From Hericium rajendrae (Eukaryota; Basidiomycota; Agaricomycetes; Russulales; Hericiaceae), in contig CM065891.1 in NCBI GenBank assembly GCA_033439255.1, forward strand, positions 744,001 to 808,000: DNA of 64,000 bases. The letters are read 5' to 3'. This document shows positions 5,843-48,846 of this stretch, piece after piece. The first letter of the stretch is position 1; every line of letters starts with the position of its first letter. Made by a program: the position numbers and the translations under genes. Under the pieces are notes generated by a model. It worked only from the letters and a program-made list of their open reading frames with translations. It was not told the DNA's origin and did not search any database.

Positions 5843-6588
5843 TTCAATCTCGCCCACAATTATTATCTTCTTGCACTCCATACGAGTACTCATTATGATT
5901 TTCAGACTGTGCTGTACACTTGTATTGTGTACTTACTGCTATTTACTCCATCCATGACTCGAAAAGCACCAGAGTGTATGACTTCAACGAAAATTTCGCT
6001 AAGTCAGTCTCGGGAAGTACCGGGCCTTTGACGCCGGTCTTAGAAACGACTTCAACACTCGCGATTTTGTCCAAGTCGGATGCCGAGGACATGCCGAGGA
6101 CATGCCGACGGCATGTCCTCGGAGCTAGGCCCCGGATCTCGGAATTGCCATTTTTGACATAAGGCTATCGTGCGGATCACGAATCTACTGTTATCAGCGA
6201 TTTATAAGCCAGATCTCGCATCGGGAGAAGATCAGCCTATTAATAGCACCATGCCAGCTGCTAATATCCGGGTAATGCCGGTTTTATTAAGCTAATAACA
6301 ATTATAATCGTGAGAAAAACATCGGTTTAATAGTGCTATCACACAAAGGCAGCAGGTGTGGGAACATTTGCCTTTAAACAGCTAACAGAGTTGCTTTATT
6401 AACATAGGCTTATTAGCGCTCTTAGCCATGATAGCTATTGTCGTTACATGGCTTTGCTTAATGTAATAGTGTTTAGTACTATAAAGTAAGTACCTACAGT
6501 TGCACTCAGATTTTACCTTCACCAATCGTATAGGCCCTGACAAGATCGCCTGGGGCGACTTTGTTTCTTCCTGGTTTTCCCCTTTAGA
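5843..6588. other. Intergenic, AT-rich 3' flank of the KDZ gene
   Basis: About 750 bp without a gene. It contains a perfect hairpin (6094-6122). From ~6230 on, AT-rich sequence with scattered TTATTAG, ATAGCTAT and similar words may be decayed transposon ends. It ends at the GA target duplication of the next element. Confidence 0.5.
6094..6122. repeat. Perfect 14-bp inverted repeat (hairpin)
   Basis: CCGAGGACATGCCG at 6094-6107 and CGGCATGTCCTCGG at 6109-6122 are exact reverse complements separated by one base. The left arm is itself preceded by a second direct copy of TGCCGAGGACA. It lies ~250 bp after the KDZ stop codon and may be part of that element's 3' subterminal region. Confidence 0.8.
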
Positions 6589-7880
6589 CATCAGGAAAAT
6601 GTAGAGGTACTACATAGCTCTATCAGAGTTATATAGAGTTCCTAGGACCATAGCATTGCCCTTTACTCCATAGCCTATATAGTCAAGGGAGGATGCTATA
6701 TAGTGCTATAAAGATCAAGAGAGATGCTATGAAGTGCTATCATAACTATCATAGCTGACTATACAGCTATAATAGGATACATAGCTATAGAAGCTATGAA
6801 AGCTATATCATTGATGTAAGCTATATTTACAAGATAGACTTGACACATCTATACAAGCAATAGACTCTATTTACACTATTCAATCTATAATTAGACAACA
6901 AACAGAATTTTATATATTTAATCAAAGATCACATCAACAATCTAAAGTCAATCATATTATGAATCAAAACATATCTTCATTTCTTTACTCTACTTAACTA
7001 CAACACAAGAAAACTACTAAACATTACATAAAAGGTACAAATTTTTAAATACACTACAAAAAGATAAACATTAGCTAAAGTCATTAGCCAAAGTCAATAC
7101 AAAAGATTATAAAACAAACTTACCCAAGATGACAAAAAAGCGAAAATCTAGTAAGCATACATACATTAGTAAATGATATAACAACTGAAGACTACAAGAC
7201 AAACTTACCAAAGTATTAAAAAAGCGAAAATCTGTTGAGATAGTACTAAGTATCAGTATAAGAATATAAGAAAGAAAGCAATAGCAGCCTTACCTTAAGG
7301 ATGACGAGCAGAGATAACGACGAGCAGACAAACGACGAGCAGACAACGACGAGCAAACAACGACGAATGAAGATGATGACGTGGCAGTAGAGATTGTGGT
7401 GGTTGAGAAGAGAGAGACGACGCGCGTCGCGCGTGCCTTATAAGGCTGAGCCCGGACGTGCCCGGTCGGAGCCACAAATGTGGCTGCCGGGCGCTGCCGA
7501 GAGCCGCGAGAAAGGCTAGGAATTAGACTTGGTTAAGTTGACTTCCCGGCTCGCGAGCGTACTGTCCGTTAGGTATCCAGTTAGCTCATTGATTTTGGTC
7601 TTACGATTAGTATATAGAAGCTCCCTTTTTTCTGGATTTATCACGATTTTATTTGACTTTCTGACGTCGAAGAAAGCTGGGCTCGCGTCAAGTGCTCTGT
7701 GGCTGAGGGACTTCAGCACGACTTTCTCACTTTCCTCTCTCCACTCTCGCCTTCCTTCGCTCAACCTCGCTCAACACACGGCGCAAGGCGTCGATCGACA
7801 CTCCGATGGGCTAGTAGACGCAGCGAGGGCCATGTAAGGTAAGTAATTACAATGTTCTTTGTATTTTCGGTACTAACAAA

Positions 7881-7914
7881 GCGAGTATCGCTCATTTACA
7901 CGAGCGATACTCGC
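7881..7914. repeat. Perfect 13-bp hairpin inside element copy 1
   Basis: GCGAGTATCGCTC (7881-7893) pairs exactly with GAGCGATACTCGC (7902-7914) across an 8-nt loop. It follows a donor-like GGTAAGTAAT and a branch-site-like TACTAAC by a few bases. The same hairpin occurs in copy 2 at 24788-24819 with a compensating base-pair change. Confidence 0.85.
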
Positions 7915-8018
7915 GTATCTGTCTTCGGGCCCCCCACACCACGACCACGACCCCACCGCGCCCACCACATCTCTTCGACAACGCCACCGACGCACCATCG
8001 CCCACCTCATCGAGCCTC

Positions 8019-8032
8019 GTTGCTGTGGCAAC
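8019..8032. promoter_or_regulatory. X-box-like palindrome (RFX site) in element copy 1
   Basis: GTTGCTGTGGCAAC matches the RFX X-box consensus (GTNRCC/RGYAAC half-sites) with one mismatch to a perfect palindrome. It lies ~105 bp after the hairpin, at the start of the GC-rich core, and is followed by GGG. Equivalent sites occur at 13638-13651 and 25076-25089. Binding by a fungal RFX protein is inference. Confidence 0.55.
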
Positions 8033-9489
8033 GGGGCTCGAGCAAACGTCATGCAGCACGACACGCGTGACGGTCCAGCAGTCCGTGCACGCCTGCGTAT
8101 GGCCCCACACCGTCAACAACGCGCCAGCGCACAGCGTTGACAGCGCAGGCAAGCCCGCGACTGTTCGTCCGGACACGGGCGCCGCGGCGCCTCCGCTTGC
8201 CTGCCCACGCTTGCGCCTCCCACTGCCTGCGCACGGTCCCTGGCAGTCCGCCCGCGCTCGCATGCGTGCTCACCCTGCGCGACTCCGCACGTACTGCCTC
8301 ACTAACCCCCGATTGGCACGCCTGTACTCACGCACGCCCCCGAGTGCCCAATGGCACCCGCGCACGACGGCCGCACGTATGGCCCTGTCATCGCGCGCAT
8401 GGCCCCACCATCGCGTGCATGGCCCCACCGTTGCATGCAGGGCCCTGCAGTCGCATGCGTGCCCGGCTGTCGCGCGGATGGCCACGCGCGCTGGCCGTCG
8501 GCGCACGCCCTCCGTGCTTCATGCACGCCCTCGCTGTCGCGTGTGCCCTGCGTGCGACTCGAGCATGGCCTGGTCGTCGGGCACGGCCTCCATGCATTGC
8601 GCACGTCCGCTCTCGCTCGTGTGGTCCCCTCGACGTGCACGGCCCTCCGGTTTCGCGCGCGACGTCGCCATGTCGTGCACGGCCTTCATGCACGGCTCAC
8701 GCACCCCGCACATACCCCTGCCGACTCGCGCGTACTCCTGCCGGCTCGAGCCTGTCCCCGCTGTCCCGGCATTGCCCTTACCACCGGTGGAGACCTTTGC
8801 TGAGTCGCGCACGGCCCTCGCATTTCGGTTATGTCATGCACAGCCGTTGTGCCTCACGCATGGCTGCACCGTAATGTGTAAAGTCCATGCGCCTTGTGTA
8901 CATGTAGCAATTATGTCTTTACTTTGTGTTGTAGCTACAATCTTCCTTAATAGGATTAAATATATGATTTTTGTCATGCTTTCAAACGTGCAATATGAAA
9001 TTTTTGACTGGATGGTTATGGGGTCTATCTCACTTAATATAGGGGCCATAGGATCCATAGGGACCATAGCAAACCAATAAGTTTATATAGCAATCATAGC
9101 TCCCCCTCAGAAGTATATAGCACTATATAGTTTTCACCTACTGCTATAAAAGCTATGATAGGTCTCATAGCCTTACATAGCTAAGAAGGGTAGCTACATA
9201 GACCTCATAGCACTCTGATAGGACACATAACCCAACACTGGGCTATGTAGAATTTCAATTTCCCTGATGGATTCACACAGGTTCAGACTTCAAGATGGGC
9301 TCCCATTCGGCAGGAGCAACGATACAGTAGGACTCGGCGTCCCAATTACGAGCGACCTATAGTAAAAAGCCGGGCCTAAGGCCCGGGCAACACAAAACGT
9401 ATGCGACAACTTCCACGACGACAAAACAAGATAGCAAATTTAAAAGGGGAGGGTCTTTCCCTTCCCGCGCAAAGCGACAGCCCCGCTCG

Positions 9490-11388
9490 TCAGGAGTCAG
9501 CCGGCACGACTTCCTCTGACGCGGCCACCTCAGCGACAGGAGCCGCCGTCGGCTCCAACGGCTCACCAGGACCCTCGACCGAAGGAACGGGGGACTCCCT
9601 CGCAAGCGGGCGCGAAGACGGACCCGCAGTGGGACTCGCCGCAGCCTCCTCCTCTGCGTCGCTAGCGGCGTCTGCAGGCTCGTCCTTGGCGACCTTGCCC
9701 TCTTCATCTGCCTCCACTGCGATATACTCGCTGCGCGTGCCCGTATAGAGGGCCATGACGAGCCTCTCGACAGCGAGGATCTGGCCGTGGTTCGACATGC
9801 GTTGGAGGTACAAACCGACAAGCTGCCACTCGGTCTCCACGAGCAGGGTGCAGCGGAGTGACGAATCGCACGGAATGCACGCGTAGGGGTCGACGTAGTC
9901 CCAGGCCCCTGGACGGAAGCCGTCGGAGACCGGGAACGGAAGGCGAGATGCGAGCGCCTCGAACGGGGCTGTAGGACGGTCACCCGGTCAGCAAACGCGT
10001 AGCAACAGTGGGGTAGCGACTTACGGAGCGCGCCCACGGAGTCTGGTATCCCCGGTAAGACCACGGGGGAGTCGACCACCTGGTCGCGACCAGAAGAAGC
10101 CGCGGCGGCGCACGCGGCAACGGGATCCACGACGGGCGCACCCATCCACGTCAGATGCGCGTTGAGGTCAACGCAGGCGAGGCAGGAAGTGCGCTTCTCG
10201 CTGCACTCGCAGCATCGCTCGTGCTTCGCGCGCCCGACGTTCTTCGCAGGGAGGACCCGGCGGAGGCACTCCTTGCCCTCGTTGATGCACGCGGTGCACC
10301 ACTGCTCGGGCAGGCACTACGCAAACAGAAAATTAGCGTCGAGCACAGGTGGAGGAGATGGGTACTTACCGGACCCCACTTCTCATCGGGCTCCTTGGCC
10401 TTGGCCTTCCCTTTCCCCTCGTTCGCAGCGACGGCGCCAGCCAGCCCCGTACGCGCCCTCTTCGCCGGCGGGGGCACTTCGACAATCTCGTCCCCCGCCT
10501 CCTCCTCCTCGACAGGTGCTACGGCCTTGTGCTTGGCCGCACGGGTCGCGGCGGACACTGGAGCGTCCAGAGCTGGGTCTACGTCCCGCTCGGCGGACGC
10601 GTCTACGACACCGGTGGCGGTCAACAGGGCGGCGACTTTGAGGCGGTCTTGCTCACCAGTCTGCGAACGGGGCGGCGATGGAGCCTGTGGGGTCTCGTTG
10701 GTTGGCGCGGCCGCCCTTTTGCCCTTAGGGGGCCCTGTCTTGCGCGTTGAAACGGGCATGACCTGCGCGGGCCCCTTGCCCTTGGGTGTCGCGGCTGCGA
10801 GCGGGGTGTTGTCGTTGCTCTCCTCGAGCTCGTCGGTCTCCCAGTCCTCTGTCTCGGTCGGGTCTTCGGGGGGCTCGAAGACGTCGAGCACCTTGGCACC
10901 CCACTTGCAGTCGGACTTCAGCTCGAGGCGGCTGAAGACTACACGGGCGTCGGCGATCCCGCGACGGAAGAAATCATTGTCGAGGTGGGTCGAATTCGAC
11001 CTCAAGAGAGGGCCCTGTCAGGAGTGGTGGTCAGCGGGGACGGAAGCAAAACGTGCGCCGGCGGACTCACCAAGCAACTGGCAACCTGGGTGATCCACTC
11101 TGCCCAGACATTGCCGGGGTCGCCTTCGCGCGGGTGGCCTGACCCGAAGAGGCGTTTGAGAGCCTGAATACCCTTGGGGTGGTTGTCGACGTACGCGCGA
11201 GCCATGGGAGACGAGGTGCTGAGGAGCGAGTCACCTCGCAACTCAGTGTTCATAAGGACTCCGCGACAAGACGGAAGCGCCTGGCAAATTGCCTCCGGAG
11301 AAGCCCCTGCGTACAGGTAGCTTCGCAGCTTCGCGCAGAAGCCTGCGACGCGGGCACCCGGCCAAAACAGTTGTCGCTTCGGACTCAA
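9490..11388 (-). CDS. Hypothetical cysteine-cluster protein, four exons
   Basis: On the minus strand, exons 11388-11071, 11014-10370, 10316-10025 and 9968-9490 join in frame to ~577 residues. The N-terminal part (RSYLYAGASPEAICQ, NVWAEWITQVASCL) is ordered. A long low-complexity Lys/Pro/Ala region follows with a likely nuclear signal (PPPAKRART). Then comes a compact Cys cluster, WCTACINEGKECL ... CCECSEKRTSCLAC, reminiscent of a small zinc-binding module. The C-terminus is Ala/Glu/Pro-rich. The first in-frame ATG is 11251-11253, but clearly coding sequence continues upstream to a stop at ~11389, so an unfound 5' exon is likely. The type is common in basidiomycete accessory DNA; function unknown. 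Confidence 0.6.
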
Positions 11389-11558
11389 TCAGGATCTCAG
11401 GCCCCGATTGGCGCCCATTTGTCATTTCAGCCGCGTCTCGCGAACAGGAAGCCTATTCGGCGACGGGCAAGTCCCACAGACAGCATAGTGTGCCTTGGCA
11501 CCAGAATAGTTCAATTGAGCGGCGAGGCATGCTCGCCACCGGCGTACATCGTACTATA

Positions 11559-12297
11559 CTAATCCGCGGCCCCTCCTGCGACCCTGTCGCGGGCACCCTC
11601 CTTGTCTGCTCGGTAGGGCGGAAGCCGCAGCAGCTCGGCCAAGTCGAGTGCCTCCGCCACTAGGCGGTGCATCGTCTCTAGCTCATGCAGATCCTCGCTC
11701 ACCTCTCCCCCGGCGTCTTCCCACGGCAGCTCCGGCGCGGAGACCGCTTGATGCAGCCTGGCGAACAACGGCTCCAGAGCTCGCTTGCAGGCCTCCGCGT
11801 CTATGACGTCATACTGGTACTTGTGGCAGGTGATATCGATTTCCTCCAGGGCCACCGCGCAGCGCGTCTCCCACAGCTCGGACTCGGCCACAGACAGGCG
11901 GTCCGCAGCATCTACCTGATGGTGCTCCAGGGAATTGAGCCACTCGCGCTTCAGCGACGGCATGAGGTACCAACCCCAGTCGAGCCAACGGCGGACTTTC
12001 CCGGACGCGCGGGCGGCCTCGGACAGGAAGTGGTCCGACATCTGCGTGATGTCATCCTGCAGACCCACGTCGATGGCGCCAGCGTAGCGCTGGTAGTCCT
12101 TCTGGAGTCCCGAGAATTAGCAGGTACGCAACAACGCCGCAAGCGAGCTTGGATGTACTACGGCGACCATGAGGTCTCGACCCCAGATCTCGCGTTCCCG
12201 GATGACCGCGTCACGCTTGGACAGCGTGGATGCATCGAGCAGGGTCCACGAGCGCTCTGCAAGGAGCAGGTCACTTTCTGGCGGAAGACTTGATCAA
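11559..12297 (-). pseudogene. Decayed helical hypothetical gene
   Basis: One minus-strand frame is coding-like from ~12297 to the stop at 11559, interrupted once by a TAA near 12120. The upstream part reads LLLAERSWTLLDASTLSKRD and WGRDLMVAVVHPSSLAALL. The downstream part reads DHFLSEAARASGKVRRWLDW, GWYLMPSLKREWL and a long amphipathic, acidic C-terminus. No start codon was found. A 26-nt GT-AG stretch covers the stop but is too short for a normal intron. It lies just upstream of, and in the same direction as, the Cys-cluster gene (9490-11388), so the two may be parts of one accessory unit. Function unknown. Confidence 0.45.
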
Positions 12298-12299
12298 GG

Positions 12300-12900
12300 A
12301 AGGTGTTCATCAGGACAAGACTGCCGGGCACGAAGATGGCTCGGAGTTGAGTGCCCTCCCGGGGCGTAGATGCCTTTTATAGGCTCGCTGCAGCACACCC
12401 GCCCAGGGCGCCATCGCACAATCGGCTTCACGCATGCCCACGTCCGAATCCCTCGTGGGGCTCCAGATTAGACTACGGAGAGTCTAAATTTTCAGTTAGG
12501 GGGAGAATGATGCGCCCTTTAGTGCGCCTTGCAATGGCATTGCCCACTCCCCGCCTCCTTGCCCATCCCGCTTCACTTCACCTCAGCCGCACCAAGTCCG
12601 CCCACCGCGACGTTGCTCCCCGCACAGGACAAGCGCCCCCACGGGTTCAGGACCGACCGGGTCGGACTAAAGCCGGTGTCCCGTGGTCCGATGCACCGAA
12701 CGGGCCGGAGATCAACCGGCCGGACGAGTCAGCGGCACAGGAACAGAAGTGCGCCCAGAGAACCAGCCGGCTCAATCAACGCGCCCTCGAACGCCCACAC
12801 GCCCCCAGATCACGAGCGGCGCCCGCGACAGTGCGCTACTGACGTCATCCCAGCCATTCCAGCTCGACGCGCCCGCCGTTCCCGACGCACGCCCCGGGCG
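12300..12900. other. Intergenic, no supported gene
   Basis: GC-rich sequence with overlapping open frames in several phases, none with recognisable similarity or splice structure. A short AT-rich island lies at ~12465-12510. It leads into the GC-rich core of the third element copy. Confidence 0.4.
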
Positions 12901-15087
12901 ACGTTGTAAGGCGGCACCTTTGATTCGTTCGTACCACGCGCATGCCCTCTGCCCTGCACGGGCCGAGCCGCAACGACTCCACTCGCCAAGGGACCCGGAG
13001 CAGGCAGGATCAGGAAGGAATTGGAGATTGGGTCGGTCAGCGGGAGGTTGTCGTAGGAAGTCGCGCCGGGCCGCCTGAGGCGGCCTTGCCCATTTGTACT
13101 GTAGCTACTGACTTAGAGAATCAGAACGGAATCTGCCTTTTTCCCCTCAGAGCTCAGATCTCACAAAGCCCGCCGTTTGACGTTCTCACCCCAGCCTCTA
13201 AGCACGTCTCAGACGTAGCTCTTCTCACTTTCTCGTGTCGCTCATCATATTCGTCGTACTCGTCGCCGCGCCGTTATCTACAAGCCGTATCACCTAAGAC
13301 CCGTGAGTCTTGTCGTACCGTCATCGTCCCTAGCAGAGCCGCATCGGAAGTCGCCCGCGCGCAGCAAGCTCGCCCTCCACGGCCTTGCTCCCCTACCCGT
13401 AGTACGATCACCCGTCAGCTACACGCCTCGGCGCTCCCCTCTTGAGATACTTGGTCCCCTCGCACCCCCCGGTACTCTGTTGGTTTTGGTTTTGGCTGCC
13501 ACCTCCATTCCCAGGGTCCACACATCAACGAACCCGGCCGCATGCGCGCAAGCTCGACAGCTCGACAGCTCGCACTTCAACCCCCCATGCCAACACTCAC
13601 GCCGACGACCACGACTGCAACGGCATCGTCGCGCCTCATTGCCGTGGCAACGGGATGGGACACGTTGTCTGCCGGGCCTCCCGGGTCCTCGCAGCCACCC
13701 AATGTCCCGCGCATGCCCTCAACAGGGTGTGCGGGTCCACCACCTCAACACCTCCACGCACCAGCACGTCCCCGCCGTCGACCACCAGTTTGCGGCCACA
13801 ACACGTGGCACCCACGGACGGCCAAGCCAGCGCGTGCATGCATTCCCATGCGCAATCATGCATGGCGACGCACGGACGCAAGCCCGCGCAATGCCCCGAT
13901 GCCCCCGCCCCGCGCCCACGTCCCGAGCCCGCCATGGCTATCTCCCCGACACCCTAGCCGCCGTCGCCACCGCCGCACCTCGTTGCTACGGCAATGCGGT
14001 GTGACTCTAGGTGCCTTTCCCGCCCACTGCACCCCGTGCACGCTCACAACGACCACGCGCACCTTCAACACGCTCGCGTACGACCCCTCACGTGAGCTGG
14101 ATGCACCAGCATGCCCCACGCCATCGACAACATGCTCGCGGACACGAGACATGGCCGTGCGTGCGCGAATGGCCTCGCCAGCACACGCACGCACTTCCGC
14201 ATGCGAGCCTGCAGCCACGCACATCCACGCAGACCCGGGCACAGCCACGCACGGCACGCAAACCCGCGCGAGATCGCGATTGCGTGCATGCACCCCGGAC
14301 GGCCTCTTCAACGTGCGTACGCCGTCCCGCACGCGAGTGCATGACCACGCTCGGCCCAGCGAGCGAGCGAGGACCGAGGCCTCAATTGCCGGCATGCATA
14401 CCCCCGAGGCGTGCACGTACACACTCCCACGCGAGCGCGCGGCCGCGCACATCCACGCGAGTGCACGCACGGCGCGCATGCTCGCATCACGCATGCCTGC
14501 TCACGCACGTCGCGGAAGGTGCGCACTGTGCACTGCCGACCCACGCAATGGCATGCCCGATAGTGCGCACTTACCCGCACGAGTGCCTGTCCGTGCTCGC
14601 TCGTGCGCCGGACACGTGCACCTGCCCGATGCCTTCGGCCTACTCGCACAAGTTCTCGCTTACCCGTACCCGTGCACGGCCGTACTCCTGCGCGAATTGC
14701 CCCTGATTGCTTACGACAGCTGTCTGCTATGCTGTCCTGGCCCCAGACTTGCTACCTACTAGGTGGTTAGTGTAGTACTGTTATGTATGTTAGTGTATCT
14801 TGAATATAAGATTTTGTTTTTGCTTCAATGTCTTGAGTGCCTAGCTAGCTGACAATAGTGAGTATAGTAGTCATATTCTCCCTTGGTAAGTATCATAGTC
14901 CTATGTATATGACACCCCTAGCTATAGAGGCTATGACACCCTATGTATTTAACACTTCATTCTATGGAGGCCATCATAGACCCCATAGCTCTGCATAGCT
15001 GCATAGTTCAACTTCATAGCCCCTATAGCTCACTGATAGGATCCATAATAGGACTTGCTGCTATATAAAAATCCTTTTTCTCAGATG
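12900..15087 (+). mobile_element. Right part of CATC-TIR element, copy 3 (left arm missing)
   Basis: The right boundary is clear: an AT-rich arm with CTATAG/CATAGC words (~14870-15075) ending CTCAGATG at 15087; on the other strand this reads CATCTGAGAAAAAGGATTTT, the family terminus. Upstream is a GC-rich, low-complexity core (~13300-14760) like those of copies 1 and 2, with X-box-like palindromes at 13638-13651 and, weaker, at ~13983. The AT-rich left arm is absent, so the start given is approximate. A CATC followed by GTACTATA after TA at 11545-11558 might be a deleted left end (TA also follows the right end), which would make this copy carry the decayed gene at 11559-12297; this is weak. 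No protein is recognisable in the core. Confidence 0.5.
13638..13651. promoter_or_regulatory. X-box-like palindrome in element copy 3
   Basis: ATTGCCGTGGCAAC is a near-perfect palindrome matching the RFX X-box, followed by GGG as in the other copies. A diverged second version, GTTGCTACGGCAAT, lies ~345 bp downstream. Confidence 0.5.
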
Positions 15088-15161
15088 TAGAACAAACCAC
15101 TTATGGATTATGGAACTACGGCGAAGACAGGCATATCAAAATTCAAGTCAGAGTATCGTAG

Positions 15162-16652
15162 CTATAGTAGAGCCCGAATGGCATGTTTGATGATGAGAAG
15201 AGTGAGTACAAATACACAGACTATGACTGCCACGCCGATGGCAACAAGCAGGATGATCAAGTCATACTGCACCCACCAATTAGCACATCGTAGGATCACG
15301 GACTCATGACCATGAACTAGCTGAACTGGTCTGTCATGAAGTACTACCTCTGTTCCTTCATGGCGGTCCGACGGCTCCGAGGACCTGACCCGCCCCTCCA
15401 TGAGCTGGTTGATGAGCCGATCAGTTGAGTCCTGGTGGCGGGCAATACAGCTCTCTAAGGCAGTAAACTGCCTGGAAAGGAGATTAAACAAGCCAGATAG
15501 TTGCGCGATCATGTTCTGATTAGCCGAGGCGATATCCTCAGCCTTTTGGAACTTGTCCGCAAAGCCCGAGACAGTGCGATGGTCGTGGCTCAGCATGTCA
15601 TTGATAGCGCGAAGAGAGCCTAGGATATTGGAGACGGTCTGATGGTCGCTGCTTAGCACATCCTTGACAGCGTGAAGAGCACATAGGATATCCCCATACT
15701 GAGACAGCTATTCGCAGACATGTCAGTCAAGTTATAGATATTTACAGAAATCAGCTTACCATGTTCGTCTCGGCAGATTCGGATACTGACAACTGGGAGA
15801 TGAAGTTGTCCAAAGGCTCCACGTCCGTTGTGATGCTCATGGGGGAGTCGACTCTGACTGTGGCCTATCAACATGTGTCATCAGTTGGCAGAGGCGAACA
15901 GAGGAAAAGAGCGAGGGCTTACCGTCAATGAGTCCGATATCGTCATTAGTGGACTGGAGGCAGTTGAAGGAGGCATAGCAACAACTCCCGAGTCTCGTTG
16001 AATCTTCATACTCTGATTGTTAGAGAGAATGCAACCGAGTCCTGGGAGACTCACTGAGGCCACTGCTCCCTGTGAACTATCTAAGGATCCTTGATTGTCA
16101 TGAAGGATGTTGTCAACTTGATCATCAATTCCCTAAGACAGAGCATTAATACCAACGGAGAAGATGGTAAGAGAAAAACATTACCTGAGCGATGTTGGTG
16201 ATCACTGAGAGGGTCTGCTCCAAGCTCTCCGAGTTCGTGGAGATGGCTGCCTGTAAGCTGTGCACATCAGGCTGTTCCAAGGCGCCTTGAAACTCCATCC
16301 CCTAGGAAGCATGAGTACCAAGGAAAACCTGTTAAGAACGACATTACCTGAGCGATGCTGGTGATTGCTGAGACAGTCTGCTCCGAGAGCTCGGATTTCG
16401 TGGAGATGGCTGTCTTTGAGGTGTGCACGCCGGGCTTTTCTGAGTCGTCTTGGACCTCGACTCCCTGAGAGGTATAAGTACAAAAGGAAAACCATTATGA
16501 AAAAAAATTACCTGAGCGACGCTCGTGACTGCCGAGACAGTCTGCTCCGAGGTTTCGGAGGGGATGGAGGTAGTCGCCTCTGAGATGTGCACTTTGGGAA
16601 GCTCTGGGTCGGTAGTTGCGTTCATCGCATAATCGCTAGCATTGTTCGACAT
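15162..16652 (-). CDS. Single-pass membrane protein with a tandemly triplicated exon
   Basis: Unrecognised gene read from ATG at 16652 to the stop at 15162; the splice sites inspected are phase 0. Exon 1 ends in a segment homologous to exon 2 (16464-16348) and exon 3 (16301-16185), each of the latter exactly 117 nt (39 residues). The shared pattern is H...AISTxSExxEQTxSxITxIAQ, and the introns after them all start GTAAT. Later exons give a Ser/Asp-rich linker, coiled-coil-prone repeats (SSDHQTVSNILGSLRAINDM, then SHDHRTVSGFADKFQK) and a C-terminal hydrophobic span of ~25 residues (LIILLVAIGVAVIVCVFVLT) followed by KHAIRALL. The topology suggests a tail-anchored or single-pass protein with a cytosolic coiled coil. 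A 42-nt in-frame segment near 16040-16080 may be a retained or spliced intron. Confidence 0.7.
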
Positions 16653-18911
16653 TGCGGTGGAGAGGGGGTGTGGGAGTAGGGTAGAAGGGGCTTCGAAGGA
16701 CTTTCAGGCCTTGAACAATGGATTTGAGCCTTGATGGGAATGCGCACACTGATATCCGGAGATCTACGAGATAAATTCGTCACCTTGACATGCGACAAAC
16801 ACGATGGAAAGTCAAGTCTTGCCTTGTGCTGCATTCACCGCGAGCCTGGAATCGGCTTCACTCTGCACTGCATGGTGTATATACCCTTACGACGTGAACC
16901 ATCGGAAGGCTGGAAATGCCATGTTCTGCTCGGGAGAGAAGATTTGGCATTTGAGAGCTGGATATGGACATGCTGGTCCGAGTTTCCGTGTGGGCGCAGG
17001 CACGAGTGAACGAACAAAGGCGACAGTATCTGGACGAAAAACATGCATCAAAATTATGGTGATCTAATATGAAATCGAGGAAGTCTGATGCACATAGCTC
17101 CTCAAACACGAGTACTACAACAGTCCACCATACCCTGAGCTGGTGTTGAATGAAGAGCCAGGAGGTCCAGCGTCGGTCCAGTTTTGCACGAGTTAAGAAT
17201 GTGCCACCGCATTCGGCAAGAGAGCCTGATATCGTGAGATGAGCCGCGTCACGGCTACAGTCCGATTGTTAGCTGATGATTGGGAAAATGCAGATTGGGA
17301 ATGGGACTGATCTTCATTCAGTAGCTGACGACGCTGGAGGGCTGCATAGCGCTGCCCATATCTGAGCTCTTGATGCATCAAGACGGTGGACCCATATGAG
17401 TACACAAGTCCCCCAGAACCATGCCCAGCACGTGGGATCAAGACATCGAGGACCTGGGTCTGGCGCCAAGTACGTCCTGTTATCCATCCCGAGTCGATGA
17501 GCCAAGCTCTGGTCTTGTACATTACTTATCTGTTCTGGCAGTTCAGCAAAGCGTGATGGTTGCTGAAGCCTAGGAACGCTTATGGAAGACATCTTTCGTG
17601 ATCTCGTCTGTCTTTCACTAACCTCGTCCGTCTTTCGTGATCTCAACTCCGTCGTTGTATCGAACACGGCTATTCATGTTTACAAGTTACGATTGTCCGG
17701 ACGCCCGCCACATTGCACCTAGATAGTGGGCCCAGTCAGTCACTCAGGCTGGGAGCCCACTTGAAGTAACGCATGTTCCCGTGGATGTCGGTGAGTGGTA
17801 ACATATCCTGGCATCGGGCTTTTCGGATATGAAGAGAATTTTTAGACATGACGTATTAACGTCGTGAGATATTATGTCCTGATTTCCAGACATCCCAACA
17901 CAAGTCCATTGTGCTCAAGTATTTGCGCAACGGTACCCATACCGCATCCTTTGTAAGTGTTCCCTTTAATGGGTTGGTCTTGGGAGTAACGGCGACATTG
18001 TCAGTGCTTTCTCATGTCACAATCGCACCCCATGGACGAGCAGTTTGGAGACGGCCTCACTCTGGCCTTAGCAGAGCTATGCGGTCGCCATTCCCAGGCC
18101 AATGTAAGGTGAGATTGTGTTGCGCGTCACGGTTCTTTTGCGAGCACATCTGCTTATATTTTGCAAAGTAGTTACCTTGTGCTGTTTATGATGGTGCTAG
18201 ATACATGTCCGAGGAATTTCTCCCTGATAGCACCCGGGCAATAACCAGTCCATTGCCAACTTTCTTTGTTTTGATACTGTGTTGCCAATTGCAGTCGCAT
18301 GATCCATTTTTTCGTGCGCTCTATAGCGAAATTTATTTATCTCAATTGGCAATGCTAACATACGGGCTCCAAGAGTACCATAGTAAGCGAATTTAAGACG
18401 GCAAAGCTAACGTGCTCGGTATGTAACAAAACAGAAGAATATTAGTGATGTTGTTCATGGTACTACAATGGACTGGTCATGTGACCTGCGGAATCATGGC
18501 ATGCGAAATTGGTCATACGCAGGGTCCTGGCTGCCGCAGGCCGAAAAAAATGGAGGGAAGGGAGGGTCCCAGCGCCGCCGCCGGGGGCTGGGAAGGGTCG
18601 GTCCATGGGCTGAGGTCCGCTTCGTACCTACCCTGTGTCGTAACCACTGCACGATCTGATGGCGCTCAAGCGCCCATCCGACTTTCAGGCTCGCCGCTTC
18701 GCGCCCATGCCCGAATGTCTGGGACATCGTAAGGGATTCGACATGAAATCGACAACTTTCCATAGCGTCTGCCTCGCCTCTCGCGCGATTGCCGATTTTA
18801 GACACGACTCCGTCTTTGCCTCCGCGGAGAGTTAATAGTGCATAGGGAGAGGGGCTTCAATTCAAGTGCTCCCTTCTTCAGACCATTACCATCGAGCTCA
18901 CTTCGTAAAAT
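16653..18911. other. Intergenic, ~2.2 kb without a supported gene
   Basis: Short open frames on both strands show no domain, codon pattern or splice chain I can support. The section next to 16652 is the promoter side of the exon-repeat membrane gene; the section before 18912 is the promoter of the following gene. Confidence 0.45.
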
Positions 18912-19698
18912 ATGCAGTCTATCGACACCATCAACGCCGCCCACCATAAGTATCATGAAGATAACTTCACCATATGGAACCCTGGACTCACGGCTCCACC
19001 CTCCACTGCTCATTTCGCCACCTGCCTCGACAAGCAGCCCACGCGCCTTTACTCCGAGCATCGCCCCGGTTACGTTGACACCAAGGGCGTCCAAGCGGAG
19101 AAGCCCGCCATCATCATCAAAATGAAGGCGAGCCTCCAAAGCGAGCCCGGTTTCTACTTCACCTTCGATGGTGACAGGTATGAGCCGGGCTTCGAGTCCG
19201 AGGCCGGGGAGCAGCGCATGCACGCGTGCTGCTGGCTGGGTCCCCCTACGGAGACAGGCATCGAGAATGCCATTTGGAGGCGAGGCCTGAAGCGCTTGAA
19301 GCAGATCGGCGACGAGAACGGTTGCGCGACCTCCGAGCTCGTGCAAGGAGACCCCGACAAAGTCGTAGGAGGTGCGAGAGATCTGGACTTGCTCCAGATC
19401 TACTGGATGCCGTCCTTCGTTGCAAAGGCGGTATGCTAAGCCATCTGCATGTTTACTGGTTGCTGCTGACGTTTGGCTATTTTTCTAGGATGTGAAAGGG
19501 ACCGGCAAGAGTCCCATGTCTCACATGCCCGTTTTCGACATGAACGAGCGCCGCCGCCCCTTCGAGACCCTTGACGACGTCCCGTTTGGGTCGCAGGTTC
19601 GGGTTCGCTTCACATTTGAAAGCGGGCGCCCCGCGTATAGTGACGAGTCGTGTCCCGAGATCGCAGCCGCTCGTTTGCTCGCTCTGCACATCTTGTGA
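18912..19698 (+). CDS. Hypothetical protein, two exons
   Basis: Exon 1 (18912-19430) and exon 2 (19489-19698) are joined by a 58-nt GT-AG intron and give 242 residues starting MQSIDTINAAHHKYHEDNFT. The composition is that of a folded soluble protein: alternating strands (PAIIIKMKASL, FYFTFDG), two Cys-Cys pairs around HACCWLG, and a C-terminal VPFGSQVRVRFTFESGRPAY. The latter has the look of a beta-barrel or nucleic-acid-binding fold, but no family was recognised. No signal peptide or membrane span is visible. It lies ~440 bp upstream of a transposase gene on the same strand and might be a passenger or accessory gene of that element; this is inference. Confidence 0.6.
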
Positions 19699-20135
19699 GC
19701 GCGTGACTGCGAGAAGGAACAGACCGTGCTTATTCGTTCGAAGGCCCGTGTCTCAAGTTATCATTTATCTTTCTTGTGCCATACTAAATACACAAAAAAA
19801 GCTCTCAAGTCTCGCAGAGTTAACTTGTAGGAATAGCTACTGTACGTGTTAAGTTTCTCGAGTTCTCGATCCTGTATGAATAGTGCCTCGCGTATCAGCC
19901 CATGTCCGTCGATTAGCCCATGTATTTACCGAAGTGTCAGCCATCTCGAAGAGAAAATGTGAAGAGAAAAAAGTATCTCCATTGTTTCTAGCCGAGACGT
20001 ATCACCCAGAACCTATGTATCATAGCTGCGACGCGAAGCAACACACTGCCCGCTCACCCGCTGTCAGCCAGGTCTCCTATCCACTCCCTTTTTGCTTCCA
20101 CCATCTTCCCTCCTCCCTCGTCCTTCAGAGCGACC
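19699..20135. other. Intergenic, promoter side of the second transposase
   Basis: About 440 bp with no gene. The last ~60 bp before the ATG at 20136 are pyrimidine-rich, as is common at basidiomycete transcription starts. Confidence 0.4.
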
Positions 20136-23100
20136 ATGTCGACCTTCGATCCCGTTGTCGTCCGCGCCATCCTCCGCAATCGGCTGCCTTCCGGAAAGCG
20201 AGAGGAATTTGATGCCGACTGGAACCAGATGGTATGTCAGCTTTATTCGGCGGCAGCGCTGGCACAGGTTACGACGCGTTCACGGTTGACGTGTCCACGC
20301 GGCGCAGTGCAGCGCACTCGACTCGACTGTCACTGATGCCGTTCCCAGGTGAAGAGCAAGGTCACCGCCTGGCAGAAGAACCGCAAAAAAGAATTATCTA
20401 CAACAGAGCAACTTGAGTGGGAGGCGAATGTCGTGAAGTACGTGGACTACGTACAGAACCTCACGATGCCGTCTTCGTCTGGGAAGCCAGCCTCATTCCT
20501 CCAACGACGTACCTCTCTATGGTCCCCATTTTCTGCCCCCCACTTACCGTGACTGCACGGCGCATCAGAAAACGCCGACTATCAAACCTGCGACTGCTTA
20601 CCTCAAACCATTATACACAGTCCATCCCTATTATTTCCCTGAGCTCCTCATGTGTCCGGTCTGCCACTCGACTAATGTAGGGTCAGAAGGCTGGACCACG
20701 AAGGGCCATCGCAAGATTCATGGCGTGAGTCAAGAGGAATTCGCCATCAGAATTCAGCTGCGTTGGACGCGGCCTGCAAAGCTGCACACAAAGAAGCGCG
20801 CAAGCGAAACCAGGGGCGCCTGAAGAAGGAAAGGGAGATCGAGCCCACCTTCTGCTTTGCCACGACGAACACGGTCTTGTGGGAGGACTGGGAGTTTTGG
20901 GCCATACCCCGTATGTCATTCTTGTGCTGCATTGATGCTTGTTGTTGCTGATGCGCTTCGTCAGGCGGCGTTCCAATCTTCTTCAAGTGCTGTGGCGTCA
21001 CACGAGAGCTGCTCGACTTGATCATCGAGTGCCGGCCTTCGACAACGTCAAGTGGCCTGGCAGAGAACATACGACGTAAGTCTAAGCACCTCAATAGACA
21101 TATGAGGTACTCACCAATTTGTTAGAGCTTCATCTCCTTGAGCATCAGAAGGCTCACTTGGACTACTTGGATACTTACCGGAGCAAGCACGGCTCCTTTT
21201 TCGACTACCAGAAACTCTATCCATTCCCTGATCCATTCGAAAAATCAATCGGAGGTGCATCGATCTCAGACGAGATCATCTCTGAAGTATTTTTGGAGTT
21301 CAACGCAAGGTCGCGCCAGTCAGAATCGGAGTCGTACATGCGCACGCTCTTCGGTAAGTGCTTCCGCCTCGTCAAGGACATGCAGTCACTCACCAATCTA
21401 TTGAAGGAATTTGCTTATCCATGGATGCTACCTTCAAAGTAGTAGACAAAGCCGTCACCGTCGATAGCAAGTGCAAGCGGACCACGGTGATGCGGGGTGG
21501 TATCATAAGCCTTATCAACGAGTTCACTGAGATACTCAATTGGGTGAGTGGGTGCCATACCTCGCATATCATGCAGCACTGATTCGCGTTCACAGACGAT
21601 GTGTCAGACTCAGCGCAACGCAGAGATGACACAGATTCTCGCGGGTTATGCTCGACGGTGCGAGGAACTCCTCGTCGACCTGCCCGAGATCGTGGTCGTC
21701 GATAATTGCTGCCACTTCCGAAGCGCAATCCTGCAGTCCCTCCCAAATGCACAAATTGTCCTCGACACCTACCATCTCATGACGAGGTAAGCAACCCCCA
21801 GTATCTCGAGCATCTAGAGCTGTGACTCACCTCAGCCCTATTGATCACAGGTATCTTGCGGCGGTCGTGAACGGTCTGAGGAATCCGCACCGTTCTGCTG
21901 TCGCGCATGACATTGTGGATGCAATCTTGAAGGCGTGCGCTACGAAGAACAGCCCCGCTGAGTACTGGAGCAAAGAGGAGCAGGCAACGAAGCTGGAGGA
22001 AGCGTACGAAAAGTGGGTCAGGAAGGGAACCGTCTGGTCGGCTGCTGCACAAAAGGTAAGCACTTCTGATGTCCCACATGACTGTGTTCTGATCTTTCTG
22101 ATCTTTTTGATGCTGATGGCAGGTACACGAGGACCAGCTCGCACATGTCAAGAAGGGCTGCCTGTCGCGCTGCAGGCAGGACATTCGCACCGATGGCAGC
22201 CGTATTGAAGGCACTAACAAACACTGGAATTCGATCATGCGCTCGCACCCGAGTGGGGTCGAGCTGTTTACTGCGCTCGCTCATGACTTCGTGCACCGCC
22301 GCAACATGCGAATTGGATACAGCGCGCGCGTCGAGGGTCAGCGTCCTGTAACAAAGCGGGACGCTTTCCTTTCTTCGACACATGGCTCTCATCATGTGCA
22401 CTTTGCAGATCATATCGCGAAGCAATGGAACATGCTGCTCGCTCAGGTCGAGCGCCGGTGCAACCCCAATACCGAGTTGGCAGATCGGCCTCGGCTGCCC
22501 ATCGTGAACAGCGGCGAGAGATTTGGTCTCGTTTCCTCGGAGCATGCGAAGACGTTCGGTGGATTGCTTGAGGACCAGGTAAAGAAACTCAAGACTGATC
22601 CTCCGACAAAGGAGGAGTTGCTAGAAGTGCCAGTGGACCTCGTCGAGCTCGCCGAGCGAGAAGACCCGGATGAACACGAGCCCAGGAACGCTGCGATCCT
22701 GCGCTCGATGCACATTGATCCTGCCCTTCGACTTGTCCCGCAATGGGATGCACCCACCATTTCCCAACCATCAGCATCTATTTTGGTCTCCGGAGGCCCA
22801 GATGAGGCCGGTGAATCACAGCCGGAAATCTGCGTGAGTGTGCAAATTTTCTTGTCCTCGTGATGAGTGTTATGACGCTTGTTTTTCCGCAGGATCTCAC
22901 GGGCAATTCGTCCTTCGATGTCGCTCACAACCAGTCTGCTGATACGCAGGAGCCTATTGACCTCACAGCAGATGCATCTTCAGATGCTCCCTCCCGGACG
23001 CTGCCAGATTCTCCCCCTGCCTCACCTTTTGATGCTCACTCTTCGGCGCCGGAGACTGCCTGTGCAACACGGCCGTCGCTGAAGCGCAAACGTCTGGAGT

Positions 23101-24787
23101 CTGACAAGCCCGCATCTGATGGGGGATCGGCGAATGGCAGCGACGGCGCCGGTGATGGTGGCAGCAGCGGCGGCAATCCCGTCAACGGCAGCGGCAATGG
23201 CGGCAGCAACGGCGGTAGCAGCGGCGCGCAGATAGAACCCCAGGCAAAGCGACCGCGCCTGCCAGCAAAAGATAAAGGCAAGAAGGCGGTTTCTACAGTA
23301 AGTTCCTCATTTTTGATCTATACATGCTACAGTTGAGGTCACTAATCACTCCACAGATCAAGACCAAGATTGCTGTACCTGGTGGAGGCAGCAAGGTTGG
23401 CCCCCGGATTGATGCATTCTTTCAGCCATATAAGCCTGCCAATCAAGCAACAGCAGCACTTTCTGCGGCACAAGCATCTTCCGCAGAGGACTCAACGACT
23501 GCCACAGACAATGCAAGCACCGCCCCATTGCCCGCAGAACATCAGGAAAATGTAGAGGTACTATATAGTCCTATCAGAGTTATATAGAGTTCCTAGGGCC
23601 ATAGCATTGCCCTTTACTCCATAGCCTATATAGCTAAGGAGAGATGCTATATAGTGCTATAGAGCTCAAGAGGGATACTATGAAGTGCTATCATAGCTAT
23701 CATAGCTAACTATGAAGCTATTATAGGATGCCTAGCTATTGAATCTATCAGAGCTATATTATCTATTTATACTATACTCAATATGTAAACTTAACACATC
23801 TATCAAAGCAATAAAATCTATCAGAACTATCAGAATCATGATTTAGCTATAAAGCAAATTTTATATTTACTATTTACTTCAAACAGATTGAAAAGATCAC
23901 ATCAAGAGATGATAGCACAGAATTTGATCAAATTAGATTATATTAAATCAATCTAAATTTACTACAACATTTGATAAGTAACTACAAATTATACATTACA
24001 GACACTAGAACATTATCAAGTCAATTAAAGAGATATATTTGATGAAAGAGTAACAACACTTACATAGATTATAACAAAAAAAAAAAACAAAAAAAAAGCA
24101 AAAACATAATCTATAAGATCAAGGAAGTCAACAAGACATTCTAAAGCTTACCAAGACTATACAAAAAGTGTTAGTCTAAAGATATAAGATAAGTATAAAC
24201 TAGCAAACATGAAAGACAAAGGCTTACCGAACACCGAGCAAAGAAAGACAGAGTTGAGAGAAAATCCGGAGGGAGGGAGAAAGTGGTGGTTGAAGAGAGA
24301 AAGAGAACGCGCGTCGCGCGAGCCTTATATACCTGAGCGCGGACGTGCCCGGTCGGAGCCACAAAGTGGCTGCGCGCGCGGCCGTGTGTCGCGAGAAAGG
24401 CTAGGTATTATTAGACTTTACCAGCTGAACTTGACTGTCCGTAGATGTACTGTACATTATATACCTGTGTAGCTCATTCATTGTACTGCTATAGACCGTC
24501 TTTTTGCCTGTTTGGCTTTTTCCTGAATTTAATGGGTTTTTTGTTGATTTGTTGAGTCTCGAAAATCATACGCTCGCACGTTCGGTGGCTGAAGTAGTCA
24601 GGGCATCGAGACTTGTTCGTTTGCTCATCCGTCTCACTCTCCATCTCCCTGCTTCATCTCTGCTTCCCTCTTGCTTCCTCTTTCTTATCTCTCTCGTCAG
24701 ACTGGAAGGAAGGGCGAGTTTCTCGGGATTCGGAGACTTTCAGGTGAGTAGACATCTGTTTCTTTCTTACTCATTTGTTCTAATAAT

Positions 24788-24819
24788 GAGAGTATCGCTC
24801 GGTATCGAGCGATACTCTC
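24788..24819. repeat. Perfect 14-bp hairpin inside element copy 2
   Basis: GAGAGTATCGCTCG (24788-24801) pairs exactly with CGAGCGATACTCTC (24806-24819) around a 4-nt loop. Relative to copy 1, a C-G pair has become A-T on both arms and the loop differs. Confidence 0.85.
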
Positions 24820-25075
24820 GATTTTCATCGTCCCTCGACACTGCACGACACCCGCGCACCTTCAACACGTCACACCCTCGCGCACCGTCCGCGCCCTCGA
24901 CAACGCCGCCCTAGCCCGTCGACAACCCCGGTTATACGACACATCGCCCCCGAGCTCCGTCGCGACTCACGCGCAGCCTCAATAACTCGCGCATGCCCCA
25001 TACCATTCCCACACCCTTCGATCACCCACCCGCCCTCGACGTCGTGCGACGTTATGCGTACGGCCCGTCGCGTCC

Positions 25076-25089
25076 GTTGCCATGGCAAC
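25076..25089. promoter_or_regulatory. Perfect X-box palindrome (RFX site) in element copy 2
   Basis: GTTGCCATGGCAAC is a perfect 14-bp palindrome and an exact RFX X-box. It is followed by GGG like the sites in copies 1 and 3, and lies at a similar place near the start of the GC-rich core. Confidence 0.6.
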
Positions 25090-27829
25090 GGGCACGAACG
25101 ACTCCATCCCGCGCGTGGCCAGACACCTCGCGCGCGGCCCTGGCATGACTGCAACACCCCGCACCCATGCGCGCAAAGCTTACTTTGCGTACGCATGCCG
25201 TACCGTTGTACCCGTTCTCGCGTGCATGCCGGTGCCCGCCAACACGCGGCCAAAGCCCCACCAAAACTCGCCCGCCTGCCCGCACACACGATACCCACGC
25301 ACGCGCGCACACGACGCTGGCTGCCCGCCCATAGCCACGTCACTGTGCGGCCATCTGCGACACGAGGCGTAAGGCTCGAGAAGTCGTGCACGACGTCGGC
25401 TGCCTGCGCAGGCCGAGCTATTGTGCGTGCGGCCTCTCATGTGCGCGGCTCGACACTGCGCGCACTCCCCGCCACGTCTGCACCCTCCTCGCCATATCCT
25501 CGCCCTCTGCACCACGTCAGCGCCCTTCGAACCACGCCTGCACACTCCTCGCCGCCTTCAACGCCGTCTACGCCGCGCCAGTGCCCTCTGCACTGCGCCC
25601 GCGCACTCCCCGCCGCATCTGCTCAGTCCCCGCCGTCTCCACACTTTCGCGCGGTCATTCCGCCATTCGCGCGGTCATCCCGCCAATCGCGCGGTCATCC
25701 CGCCAATCGCGCGGTCATCCCGCCATACGCGCCGTGTCACTGCTGTTCGCACGGTGTCAATGCCGTCCGCGTCATGTCAATGCCGTCCGCGCCGTCTCTG
25801 CGCATTCCGCGCCGCCTACCCGCCTTCCGCTGCACTCGCACGTCATCACCATCTGCGCGCGAACATAACGCGCGGACGGGTTCTGGCAGCCCCCCTCAAG
25901 GCAGCAGCCCGTGCGTGACCCCGCCATCACAGGTGCTGACGCCATGCACACAATGTCAGCACCGCGCGTGCGACGTCAGTAACCCATGCATATGATGCGC
26001 ACGGCCGCGATCTACATGCACACTACCTAGATTATATATTTAATTATGACTAGTTTTAGTAGTTGGACCCTTTGTATCAATGGTACGACTTTGATCCAAT
26101 AAAATTAAAAATTTTGGCTTGTGATTATGGAGTCTACCATGCCTGACATAGGGCTCATAGCATCCATAGCAAGCCTATAATGGTACATAGCTCTGATAGT
26201 GATGGCTCACAGGTACATAGGTCTATATACCTTCTGCCTGCTGCTATGAAGGCTATGATAATGTGCATAGCTCTACATAGGTACAAGGATGGCTATATAG
26301 ACCTCATAGCACTATGTTAGAACACATACTTTAGTACTGAGCTATATAAATTTCTAATTTTTCAGATGAAAAGCCGCTCGCACTCGCATCATTGCACGGC
26401 AAGGAGGTTGCTCCATGCCCCATTCCGATCCTCGAGCTCGAGGGGCTTACGCGCTCGGAGCGCTTTCGCTCCGTGCTCACTGGTATTCATGCGCACTCGA
26501 CGAGGATCGAGGGTGACATTGAATTTTACCTATTCATGGATATGCGCGAGGAGAAGAAGTGGGCGACGTTCACGATGACGTCGCACATGTGGATCAGCGC
26601 AACTGCAGAATACAACAGACGCCTACGTGCAAAGAACGACACGAAGGGTCTGAGGACTATCAACAAGCACCCGGATGCCCTCATCTCAAGGCTTTCCCAG
26701 ATCGAGAAGGCCATTAAGAAGAGGATTGAGGACAATGATTACAAAGGTAAGCTTCGGCTCTACTTTTCTCTTTACTTATCACTCATTGCGCTACTTTACA
26801 GCTCACAGGACCGGTTTGCCAAGCGAGTTCTGGGAGAGACATTGTGCCCTCATACCGCTCATGTCGCCTGCCATGAAAACGGTAAGTCTCCCTACCCGAG
26901 AGCCTGCGCGCCAGTGCGGCACATCTGACTTGGTCTCGCCGTTGCAGCGCAAGGTCCAGACGTGCAGCCGCTGCAAGACCGTCAAGTATCCGGGCCCCAC
27001 TGGCTCACCCGAGAACCACAAGCTCAAGTGCTGTTCGGACGGCGTGCGGATTGCAGATGACAAGGATGCGCCGCCGCCGTGGCCCCAGCCGAGTGGAATT
27101 TACAAGGATGGAACTCATTTCAATGCCGCCGCGTTCCTTGATACGGTGCGCGACGTCTACGAGCGGATTGTCGTCGATGGCCAGAATCCACTCGACTTGC
27201 CGACCGACCTCATCAACTTTGCGCTCACACTGGATGAGCATCTCGTCAAGGCACACACCGAGGAGTGCATCCTCTTCAAGCTGTGGCAGGGCCTCGAGAT
27301 TGACGGGCCGCCGCTCGACGACCGCATAACCTACGTCGCCGGGCAGCGGTTTCTCGTCATCGACCCACTCGTCCTCGTAACGGGCGCTGCCGCCGGGATG
27401 CTTGCTGCGGCGATGCGCACGCGTGCGAATGCACGCATTGCGGGCATGGGCATGGGTGCAACGAGCGCGGATGTTGGTATGGCGGGCGCGGGTGCAAGCA
27501 CGAGCGCAGGCGCTGGCATGACAAGCGTGGGTGCAGGGGCAACAGGTGCGGGTTCAAGCACCGTGGCCACTGGCATGCCCAGTGCACGGGCGAGCACGAC
27601 CATCGCGGGCATCATCGCGAGTATGGGCACGACGAGCACGGGCACGAGCAGCGCGGGTGGGATCACAACGAGCAGCACCGGCGTGTGGGCCACGCGTGTG
27701 GGTGTGAGTTCGGGCGCGAGCGTGAGCGCAGATGTAGGCACGACAGGCACACGCCCGACGAATGCGGCGAACACGCGCGGGGGCACAACGAGCGCAGACA
27801 CGAGCGCAGGTACGGGGCGCGGGCATTGA

Positions 27830-28284: not shown

Positions 28285-28788
28285 GTCGGCCCGCTGTCGT
28301 CCGTATCCGCGACATCCGCACGTCTCTACGAGGAGTGCAAGCTTGTCGAAGATGACCACAAGCCGACGGGCGAGACGAGGCCGAACCTATATCCCGACCA
28401 GTGGGCCTTCACGGGCACCCTCCGCGACTCGGGCGCCATTCTGACCTTTAGCTTGCGCTCGGGCGGGACGTCGACGAAGGAGACGGACAAGGCGCGCCCG
28501 ACGCTGGTGTGGCTGATCGAGGGCGAGGAGGGCCATATCCGCATCGAGAGCACGGCGACCATTGGGTCCGGCGTTCACATCGCGGCGACGCATAAGGTTA
28601 TTTTGAATGGCGAGGAAGTAAGCGTCACTGATCATGAGCTGGGAAACACCGGGCAGGCATGGCTGGAGTTCGCGAAGGGCGAAAAGGGGCGCTACCCCAC
28701 ATTCGACGATGCGGTGGTCGTCCACAAACATATTGATGCCATTGAGCGCAGCGCGAAGGAGGGACGTACAGTTAAGATCGAGATCTGA
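28285..28788 (+). pseudogene. Broken-off last exon of a Gal80-like Gfo/Idh/MocA oxidoreductase
   Basis: The frame from VGPLSSVSATSARLYEECKL to the stop at 28788 is closely similar to exon 4 of the three complete genes at 47.4-52.9 kb. It has the same landmarks: PTGETRP, DQWAFTG, RDSGAILT, DKARPTLVWLIEGEEGHIR, KVILNGEEV, TDHELGNTG and AIERSAKEG. The Rossmann half, exons 1-3 and the start of exon 4 are missing, and no ATG opens the frame. It is on the opposite strand from the main cluster and ~19 kb from it. It resembles the copy at 51638-52930 most (WAFTG, IAATHK). It is a dispersed partial duplicate and presumably not functional. Confidence 0.85.
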
Positions 28789-48704: not shown

Positions 48705-48795
48705 TGATGTACCAGAGCAAGAATTGGGTGAGAATTGCGAAGTGGTTGTGAATGGAGGTTTGAGAATGGTCTTGTTCGTTTGCTCATGGCGTGTA

Positions 48796-48805: not shown

Positions 48806-48846
48806 CGGTCAAACGGCGCCCAATGAGCGCTCCTCCACCGGTACCC

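Follow-up and report, generated by a model that had tools for sequence, protein, structure and literature searches.

The CACTA/EnSpm elements of plants, which fall into the same wider clade as the PlavakaB elements of fungi, are cut-and-paste transposons with CAC(TA) ends, 3-bp target duplications and subterminal repeats, and their non-autonomous derivatives are common. Maize Ds and dSpm exemplify long derivatives that are not autonomous and that have their ends and subterminal repeats in common with the element that supplies the transposase. According to the part of the published account available to us, PlavakaB families occur in Agaricomycotina and have 5'-CATCA..TGATG-3' termini with duplications of 2 or 3 bp, PlavakaA elements have TGT..ACA termini, certain fungal EnSpm elements have CAC..GTG termini with 3 bp duplications, and the duplications of Kyakuja and Zisupton are 7 bp and 8 bp long, respectively (Kojima, 2025, PMC12730594). 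Here we describe a family of gene-less elements found in a 64,000-nucleotide stretch of the Hericium rajendrae genome (contig CM065891.1, C14:744001-808000 in our numbering, referred to as the window), which belongs to an assembly of 46,767,965 bases (46.8 Mb) in 19 contigs.

The subterminal repeats of these elements are reminiscent of CACTA/EnSpm elements, whereas their ends are CATC and their duplications are mostly 2 bp long. Unlike in Ds and dSpm, the non-coding interior keeps its architecture even between subfamilies with cores that cannot be aligned, and the arms of a transposase supplier were not found here. The closest likeness is to PlavakaB, which has CATCA..TGATG-type ends and 2 or 3 bp duplications, and Plavaka genes are present in the genome; the elements differ in that no transposase was found inside, in arms filled with ATAGC words, in CATCT end variants, and in a hairpin and a CpG-rich core, features that are absent from the available part of the PlavakaB account (Kojima, 2025, PMC12730594). 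We conclude that they are very probably PlavakaB-type DNA transposons (CMCT clade) that move by cut-and-paste and are non-autonomous. In their ends and mobility they follow a known pattern, and the conserved hairpin and the CpG-rich interior are what is new.

Results

Ends, target duplications and empty sites

The window carries two complete copies, W1 and W2, and the right part of a third element (Table 1), the left part of which is absent from the window. The genome was searched with the arms, and the best 40 candidates were scored out of 195 (left arm), 206 (right arm) and 139 (positions 14760-15087 of the third element). The first base of W1 was reached by 39 of the 40 left-arm matches and its last base by 39 of the 40 right-arm matches, while all 40 matches to 14760-15087 reached the final base. 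The boundaries proposed in the initial annotation for the two complete copies and for the right end at 15087 are correct, and the duplications that it had claimed were found as well. The sequence CATCAGGAAAATGTAGAG occurs in the window only at 6589 and 23540 (two matches at ≤3 mismatches, 0.02 expected). In the arms, previously described as AT-rich and full of CTATAG/ATAGCT words, the number of ATAGC/CTATA-type words is 27 (W1) and 24 (W2) for the left 300 bp; the right 250 bp contain 16 and 14, respectively. The background is 0.8 per 300 bp (window 39-64 kb). Identity of the left arms of W1 and W2 is 94% over 100 bp, 90% over 200 bp, as had been estimated, and 83% over 300 bp. The inverted termini reported earlier are present, but short and imperfect, with 13/18 and 11/18 bases matched in the two copies.

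An end pattern consisting of CATCWGRNAAWN, 8-11 bases and TAYATAG gave 382 forward and 366 reverse matches in the genome (748 in total), and the reversed-pattern control gave none. In the fetched loci (L numbers), 34 elements were delimited; L051 was left out because its right end was not found, and the left end of L041n and the right end of L042 lie outside the pattern and were placed by eye. All 34 have CATC at both ends, partly by construction, as the pattern was used for delimiting; CATCA was seen at 26 left and 23 right ends and CATCT at the remainder. Where both ends of an element match the pattern, the two are of different types: TAYATAG ends at base 29 in one (called left) and at base 27 in the other. 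Duplications of 2 bp were found in 31 elements and of 3 bp in 3 (one fits both), so that 33 of the 34 have one or the other, although L041 and L056 share flanking sequence and are possibly not independent. The outer element of L042 has no duplication. When flanks of different elements were cross-paired as a control, a duplication appeared in 9.2% of 1122 pairs. The claim that non-autonomous elements with fixed CATC ends and 2-bp duplications make up this family thus held genome-wide, except that some duplications are 3 bp long.

Empty sites were sought by comparing the joined flanks of 15 elements with all fetched sequence, and alignments spanning the junction were obtained for six of them. 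Three were clean paralogous empty sites, each shorter than the joined flanks by exactly 2 bp, in one gap (L045, L046 and L055). The empty site of L045 is L033, and those of the other two lie in the window (Table 1). The junction alignments of L047, L049 and L053 had 4-12 gaps each and were not relied on.

Because the ends and the duplication lengths match those published for PlavakaB in the available part of the source (PMC12730594), the elements were filed as PlavakaB-type, and the earlier statement that they fit no named superfamily can be replaced by this placement. By the coordinates of the Plavaka matches scored (123 of 166 candidates), none was found in the window copies or in five longer copies, a gap that is expected for non-autonomous members; autonomous membership of these elements is not claimed. 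Judging from the ends, Plavaka would be the enzyme moving these copies. The transposase, supplied by a Plavaka gene at another place in the genome, would recognise the CATCWGRRAAA-like ends and also the repeated ATAGC-type words, putative transposase binding sites, in the nearly CpG-free arms. It would then excise the element and insert it where the target has been cut with a stagger of 2 bp, or sometimes 3 bp, these bases becoming duplicated.

Table 1. Positions in the window of the elements, their parts and two empty sites
Feature	Position	Strand	Remarks
W1, complete element, 2681 bp	6589..9269	+	CATC..GATG ends; target duplication GA (6587-6588, 9270-9271)
Left arm of W1	6589..6888	+	conserved, rich in ATAGC/CTATA words, zero CpG
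Central region of W1	7389..7690		conserved, promoter-like; from alignment of elements
Palindrome of W1, GAGTATCGCTC-N8-GAGCGATACTC	7883..7912		3' of 5' splice site-like GGTAAGT and CTAAC branch-like motif
Core of W1, non-coding	7926..8821	+	C-skewed; 125 CpG, observed/expected ratio (O/E) 1.18, GC 0.70
Right arm of W1	9020..9269	+	zero CpG, ATAGC words
Empty site for element in L055 (C2:592966-595673)	9563..9873		311 bp vs 313 bp joined flanks
Empty site for L046	13297..13527		single TT here; TT on both sides in L046
Third element, right part (core and right arm)	13528..15087	+	start approximate; ~1-kb repeat (12508-13527) abuts
W2, complete element, 2829 bp	23540..26368	+	CATC..GATG ends; target duplication AA (23538-23539, 26369-26370)
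Palindrome of W2	24790..24817		arms as in W1, loop differs
Core of W2, non-coding	24829..26009	+	172 CpG, O/E 1.39, GC 0.67; 20-bp tandem units
GTTGCCATGGCAAC palindrome in W2	25076..25089		from motif comparison across representatives

The cores of W1 and W2 do not align (40% identity overall). The nearest copy found for W1, with 37 differences in 2681 bp, is on another contig (C12:1004030-1006710), and the core of W2 is 96% identical to a copy at C17:363256-364409. Consequently, the proposed recent spread applies to some copies, such as W1 and its C12 twin, but W1 and W2 are not a recent pair, and the three neighbouring elements within 20 kb are not a local burst, since the window copies belong to different subfamilies with their closest relatives on other contigs.

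A conserved interior with a hairpin and splice-like signals

For comparison of the interior, 31 copies shorter than 3.1 kb were used, from which 21 representatives less than 70% identical to one another were chosen. The segments conserved across the 21 are the left arm (~300 bp), 7389-7690 and 7839-7920 of W1, and the right arm (~250 bp); most of the GC-rich core stays at an identity of ~0.3 and is unalignable. The 7839-7920 block, at the entry to the ~1-kb non-coding core, contains GAGTATCGCTC, a variable loop and GAGCGATACTC. This palindrome was present in 31/31 copies and 21/21 representatives (≤2 mismatches per arm) and in none of 20 shuffle rounds, and 225 perfect palindromes were found in the genome against 0 in the control (each read once per strand). 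The hairpins of the window had RNA folding z-scores of -5.6 and -4.9. Just upstream of the palindrome, GTAAGT/GTGAGT and CTAAC/CTAAT were found in all 11 representatives that passed a stricter pattern (11 of 21 passed). A TATA-type motif is exact in the central region of 15 of the 34 delimited elements, W1 not being among them, and a promoter role may be proposed for this region. Another palindrome, GTTGCCRYGGCAAC, was seen within 2 mismatches in 11 of the 21 representatives, compared with a mean of 0.7 and a maximum of 2 in shuffles; together with its form GTTGCCATGGCAAC in W2, we take it to be X-box-like. The conserved interior, with its promoter-like region, splice-like signals and hairpin, may be transcribed.

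The core had been described as GC-rich and devoid of a protein gene. This was borne out, as none of the three long open frames tried had a Pfam match and a coding core was rejected: differences in two sister pairs show neither three-base periodicity nor a synonymous excess. In eight cores the longest open frames were about as long as in simulated sequence (p 0.03-0.63, the 0.03 of W2 being borderline). Capture of the core from the host was likewise discarded, as all 22 rows of W1-core matches lie, by coordinates, in sister elements; the matches of the W2 core comprise one close sister and 14 weak rows of unread surroundings.

It is possible, if doubtful, that the interior is a unit of its own, namely a non-coding transcript that is spliced, includes a hairpin and a CpG-rich exon, and occurs in several transposon families. 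Such a unit would aid expression or survival under methylation and is compatible with PlavakaB-type mobility. The constancy of the palindrome across copies, divergent representatives and the genome speaks for it, as does a set of 22 palindromes sharing one loop type. One locus of this set, L082 (801 bp), has the same splice-like signals, palindrome and C-rich, GC-rich core and no ATAGC-type word. The end positions listed (the first 100 of the 748) extend over C1 and over C2 as far as 2.55 Mb, and none of the eight such palindromes in this range has a listed end within 2.5 kb. This single short locus hints at a cassette that may be shared between transposon families. On the other side, the unit is known from DNA sequence, its second type is represented by a single 801-bp locus, and no match was obtained in Rfam at gathering thresholds. 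The literature search, which covered its sources in part, found no description of such an interior. A more specific proposal, which we consider rather doubtful, is that the interior is a functional cassette under selection, composed of the promoter-like region, a spliced leader, the hairpin and the CpG-rich core. The core would be kept CpG-rich even though single copies lose CpGs to methylation-type decay, and the arms might be purged of CpG to keep the transposase sites from being methylated. The role of the cassette might be that of a methylation buffer, or else of a non-coding RNA, and it might have been exchanged between families with unrelated arms.

CpG split between arms and core

CpG is absent from the left 300 bp in 24 of the 31 copies and from the right 250 bp in 30, whereas the cores have a CpG O/E of 0.83-1.47 (median 1.21), a GC content of 0.63-0.78 and an excess of C in 31/31. 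Transitions in CpG context made up 32/37, 24/28 and 19/29 of the differences in three close, nearly gapless sister pairs, 54/104 in a more distant pair and 79/161 in a pair whose comparison a nested insertion disturbed. When an outgroup was used, losses of CpG outnumbered gains by 13:4 (7:2 for just the left part), 16:2, 18:1 and 29:1, in runs that share copies and in which some sites were not polarised. This loss is the signature expected of 5-methylcytosine decay, and five C5-methyltransferase matches were found in the genome. In basidiomycete transposons, decay of this kind is reported, in the part of the source available, as strong in one of three species and weak in two (PMC4352252). Between subfamilies, transversions in the core compared with the other parts were 9.6% vs 0-3.7%, 6.2% vs 2.0-4.4% and 9.2% vs 2.0-5.4%, core figures that misalignment may inflate. 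Because core transversions are also elevated, CpG decay alone is insufficient to explain the turnover of the core. The cheapest account would be that the source copies evade methylation, with decay confined to the silenced ones; by itself it leaves the CpG-free arms unexplained.

The genome also has 46 Tet_JBP matches (38 above the curated cut-off), several of which form sets of identical score and frame length, as if multi-copy. None was seen by eye inside the elements among the 100 listed ends. At C1:5280854-5281203, an ATAGC-family right end (C1:5281177) overlaps a TET/JBP match, as if the element were inserted into a TET gene.

Plavaka genes and the search for an autonomous partner

The genome contains 132 PF18759 (Plavaka) matches (123 of 166 candidates scored). 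A Plavaka gene is located in two loci (C2:3857472 onward and C4:1132277 downward) that share 99.6% identity over 7.77 kb or more and start exactly at CATCTGGAAAAAGTG, a CATCTGG end, in different flanks. At two further gene loci, L061 and L062, a CATCAGGAACC end accompanied by TCAGAT-type words lies downstream. Therefore, CATC ends do occur at Plavaka-bearing loci of this genome. Elements of 401 bp with ends of this latter type (CATCAGGAACCTTCAAAACTTTCTG) and 2-bp duplications were found at L047:2325-2725, L049:1295-1695 and L059:604-1004, and the pattern for their ends has 907 genome matches at ≤2 mismatches. Six of the eight sub-threshold TET/JBP matches (27.5-30.2 bits) sit 6.4-7.4 kb from Plavaka matches, at the CATCTGG loci C2:3857472 (L063, L077) and C4:1132277 (L064, L078) and at C2:33965, C14:67218, C4:348987 and C9:549710; the CATCTGG Plavaka loci could represent a TET-bearing Plavaka family.

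Five long copies were considered as autonomous candidates and rejected: L039 (10.1 kb), L041 (7.8 kb), L042 (5.7 kb), L079 (5.3 kb) and L080 (4.4 kb). L041 and L042 hold nested elements and L080 a ~1-kb repeat, and the two sides of L039 match ordinary copies over 1992 bp and 450 bp. The Pfam scan of the long copies covered open frames of L039 and L079. A 605-aa open frame without a Pfam match lies at L079:1621-3438, inside the 5.3-kb ATAGC-arm element, and is possibly a captured sequence. The longer transposase-bearing relative with the same arms, which the initial annotation had suggested looking for, was thus not found among the five.

Arm matches were also examined for a Plavaka match within 15 kb on their inward side, which 11 of the 120 scored ones have. 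Three of these are in elements that end before the Plavaka match, and in two (L061 and L062) a Plavaka end of another kind lies in between. In the remaining six, at C4:1680460, C11:1844698, C10:67755, C7:2325104, C7:2315261 and C13:142923, the Plavaka match is 8.8-13.3 kb away, so that a partner is neither shown nor excluded; one of the six, near L059, was partly read, and no ATAGC arms were seen in that part. A Plavaka partner in one of these six neighbourhoods, if true, would favour the PlavakaB placement.

Besides these six, several points count against that placement. No copy combining ATAGC arms with a Plavaka gene was found among the five longer copies and the 120 arm matches, and by coordinates no Plavaka match overlaps any of the five. 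The 7.7-kb extra stretch of L039 yielded no identification, two of its open frames lacking a Pfam match. The Plavaka loci read (L059, L061-L064) have no ATAGC-rich arms of their own, and the CATCTGG family is known from one end only. The ends are CATCA or CATCT and hence broader than the published CATCA, and mobility is known here from traces in the DNA, namely ends, duplications and empty sites.

These points leave room for a separate, undescribed CMCT-like lineage, the transposase of which would be Plavaka-like in end preference only and the autonomous member of which is absent or was not found. It would account for the missing transposase-bearing copy with ATAGC arms and for the Plavaka loci read having other subterminal words or none. 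Nevertheless, we regard it as improbable: PlavakaB agrees with the ends, with the lengths of the duplications and with the type of genome, Plavaka genes are abundant, one family has a CATCTGG-type end, and the six neighbourhoods were not read through. Membership in another known group is very improbable. The subterminal repeats recall CACTA elements, but the ends are CATC and not CAC(TA) as in CACTA/EnSpm or TGT..ACA as in PlavakaA, and the duplications are mostly 2 bp long (31/34) and not the 3 bp of CACTA/EnSpm or the 7 or 8 bp of the Kyakuja, Dileera and Zisupton (KDZ) elements, while Helitrons, which have no terminal inverted repeats and make no target duplication, do not fit the inverted ends, duplications and empty sites.

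Other features of the window

The ~1-kb repeat at 12508-13527 is 97.5% identical to a stretch within L080, and a relative of it elsewhere was the target of the L046 insertion. A 163-bp unit is repeated in tandem at 16172-16551 (~2.3 copies). Three direct repeats ~2 kb apart, with blocks 65-86% alike, occupy 47394-52770 and have an inverted relative at 28286-28810. Proteins encoded in the window include F-box-like, flavin oxidoreductase and chaperonin proteins.

Discussion

Considering the PlavakaB end signature, the clean empty sites and the close sisters, the H. rajendrae genome very probably hosts a large gene-less population of PlavakaB-type elements (748 pattern-matched ends in 46.8 Mb). 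The juxtaposition, in the same element, of nearly CpG-free arms with a core that loses CpGs in sister copies and yet is CpG-rich in all 31 short copies would offer a direct test of transposon function under cytosine methylation.

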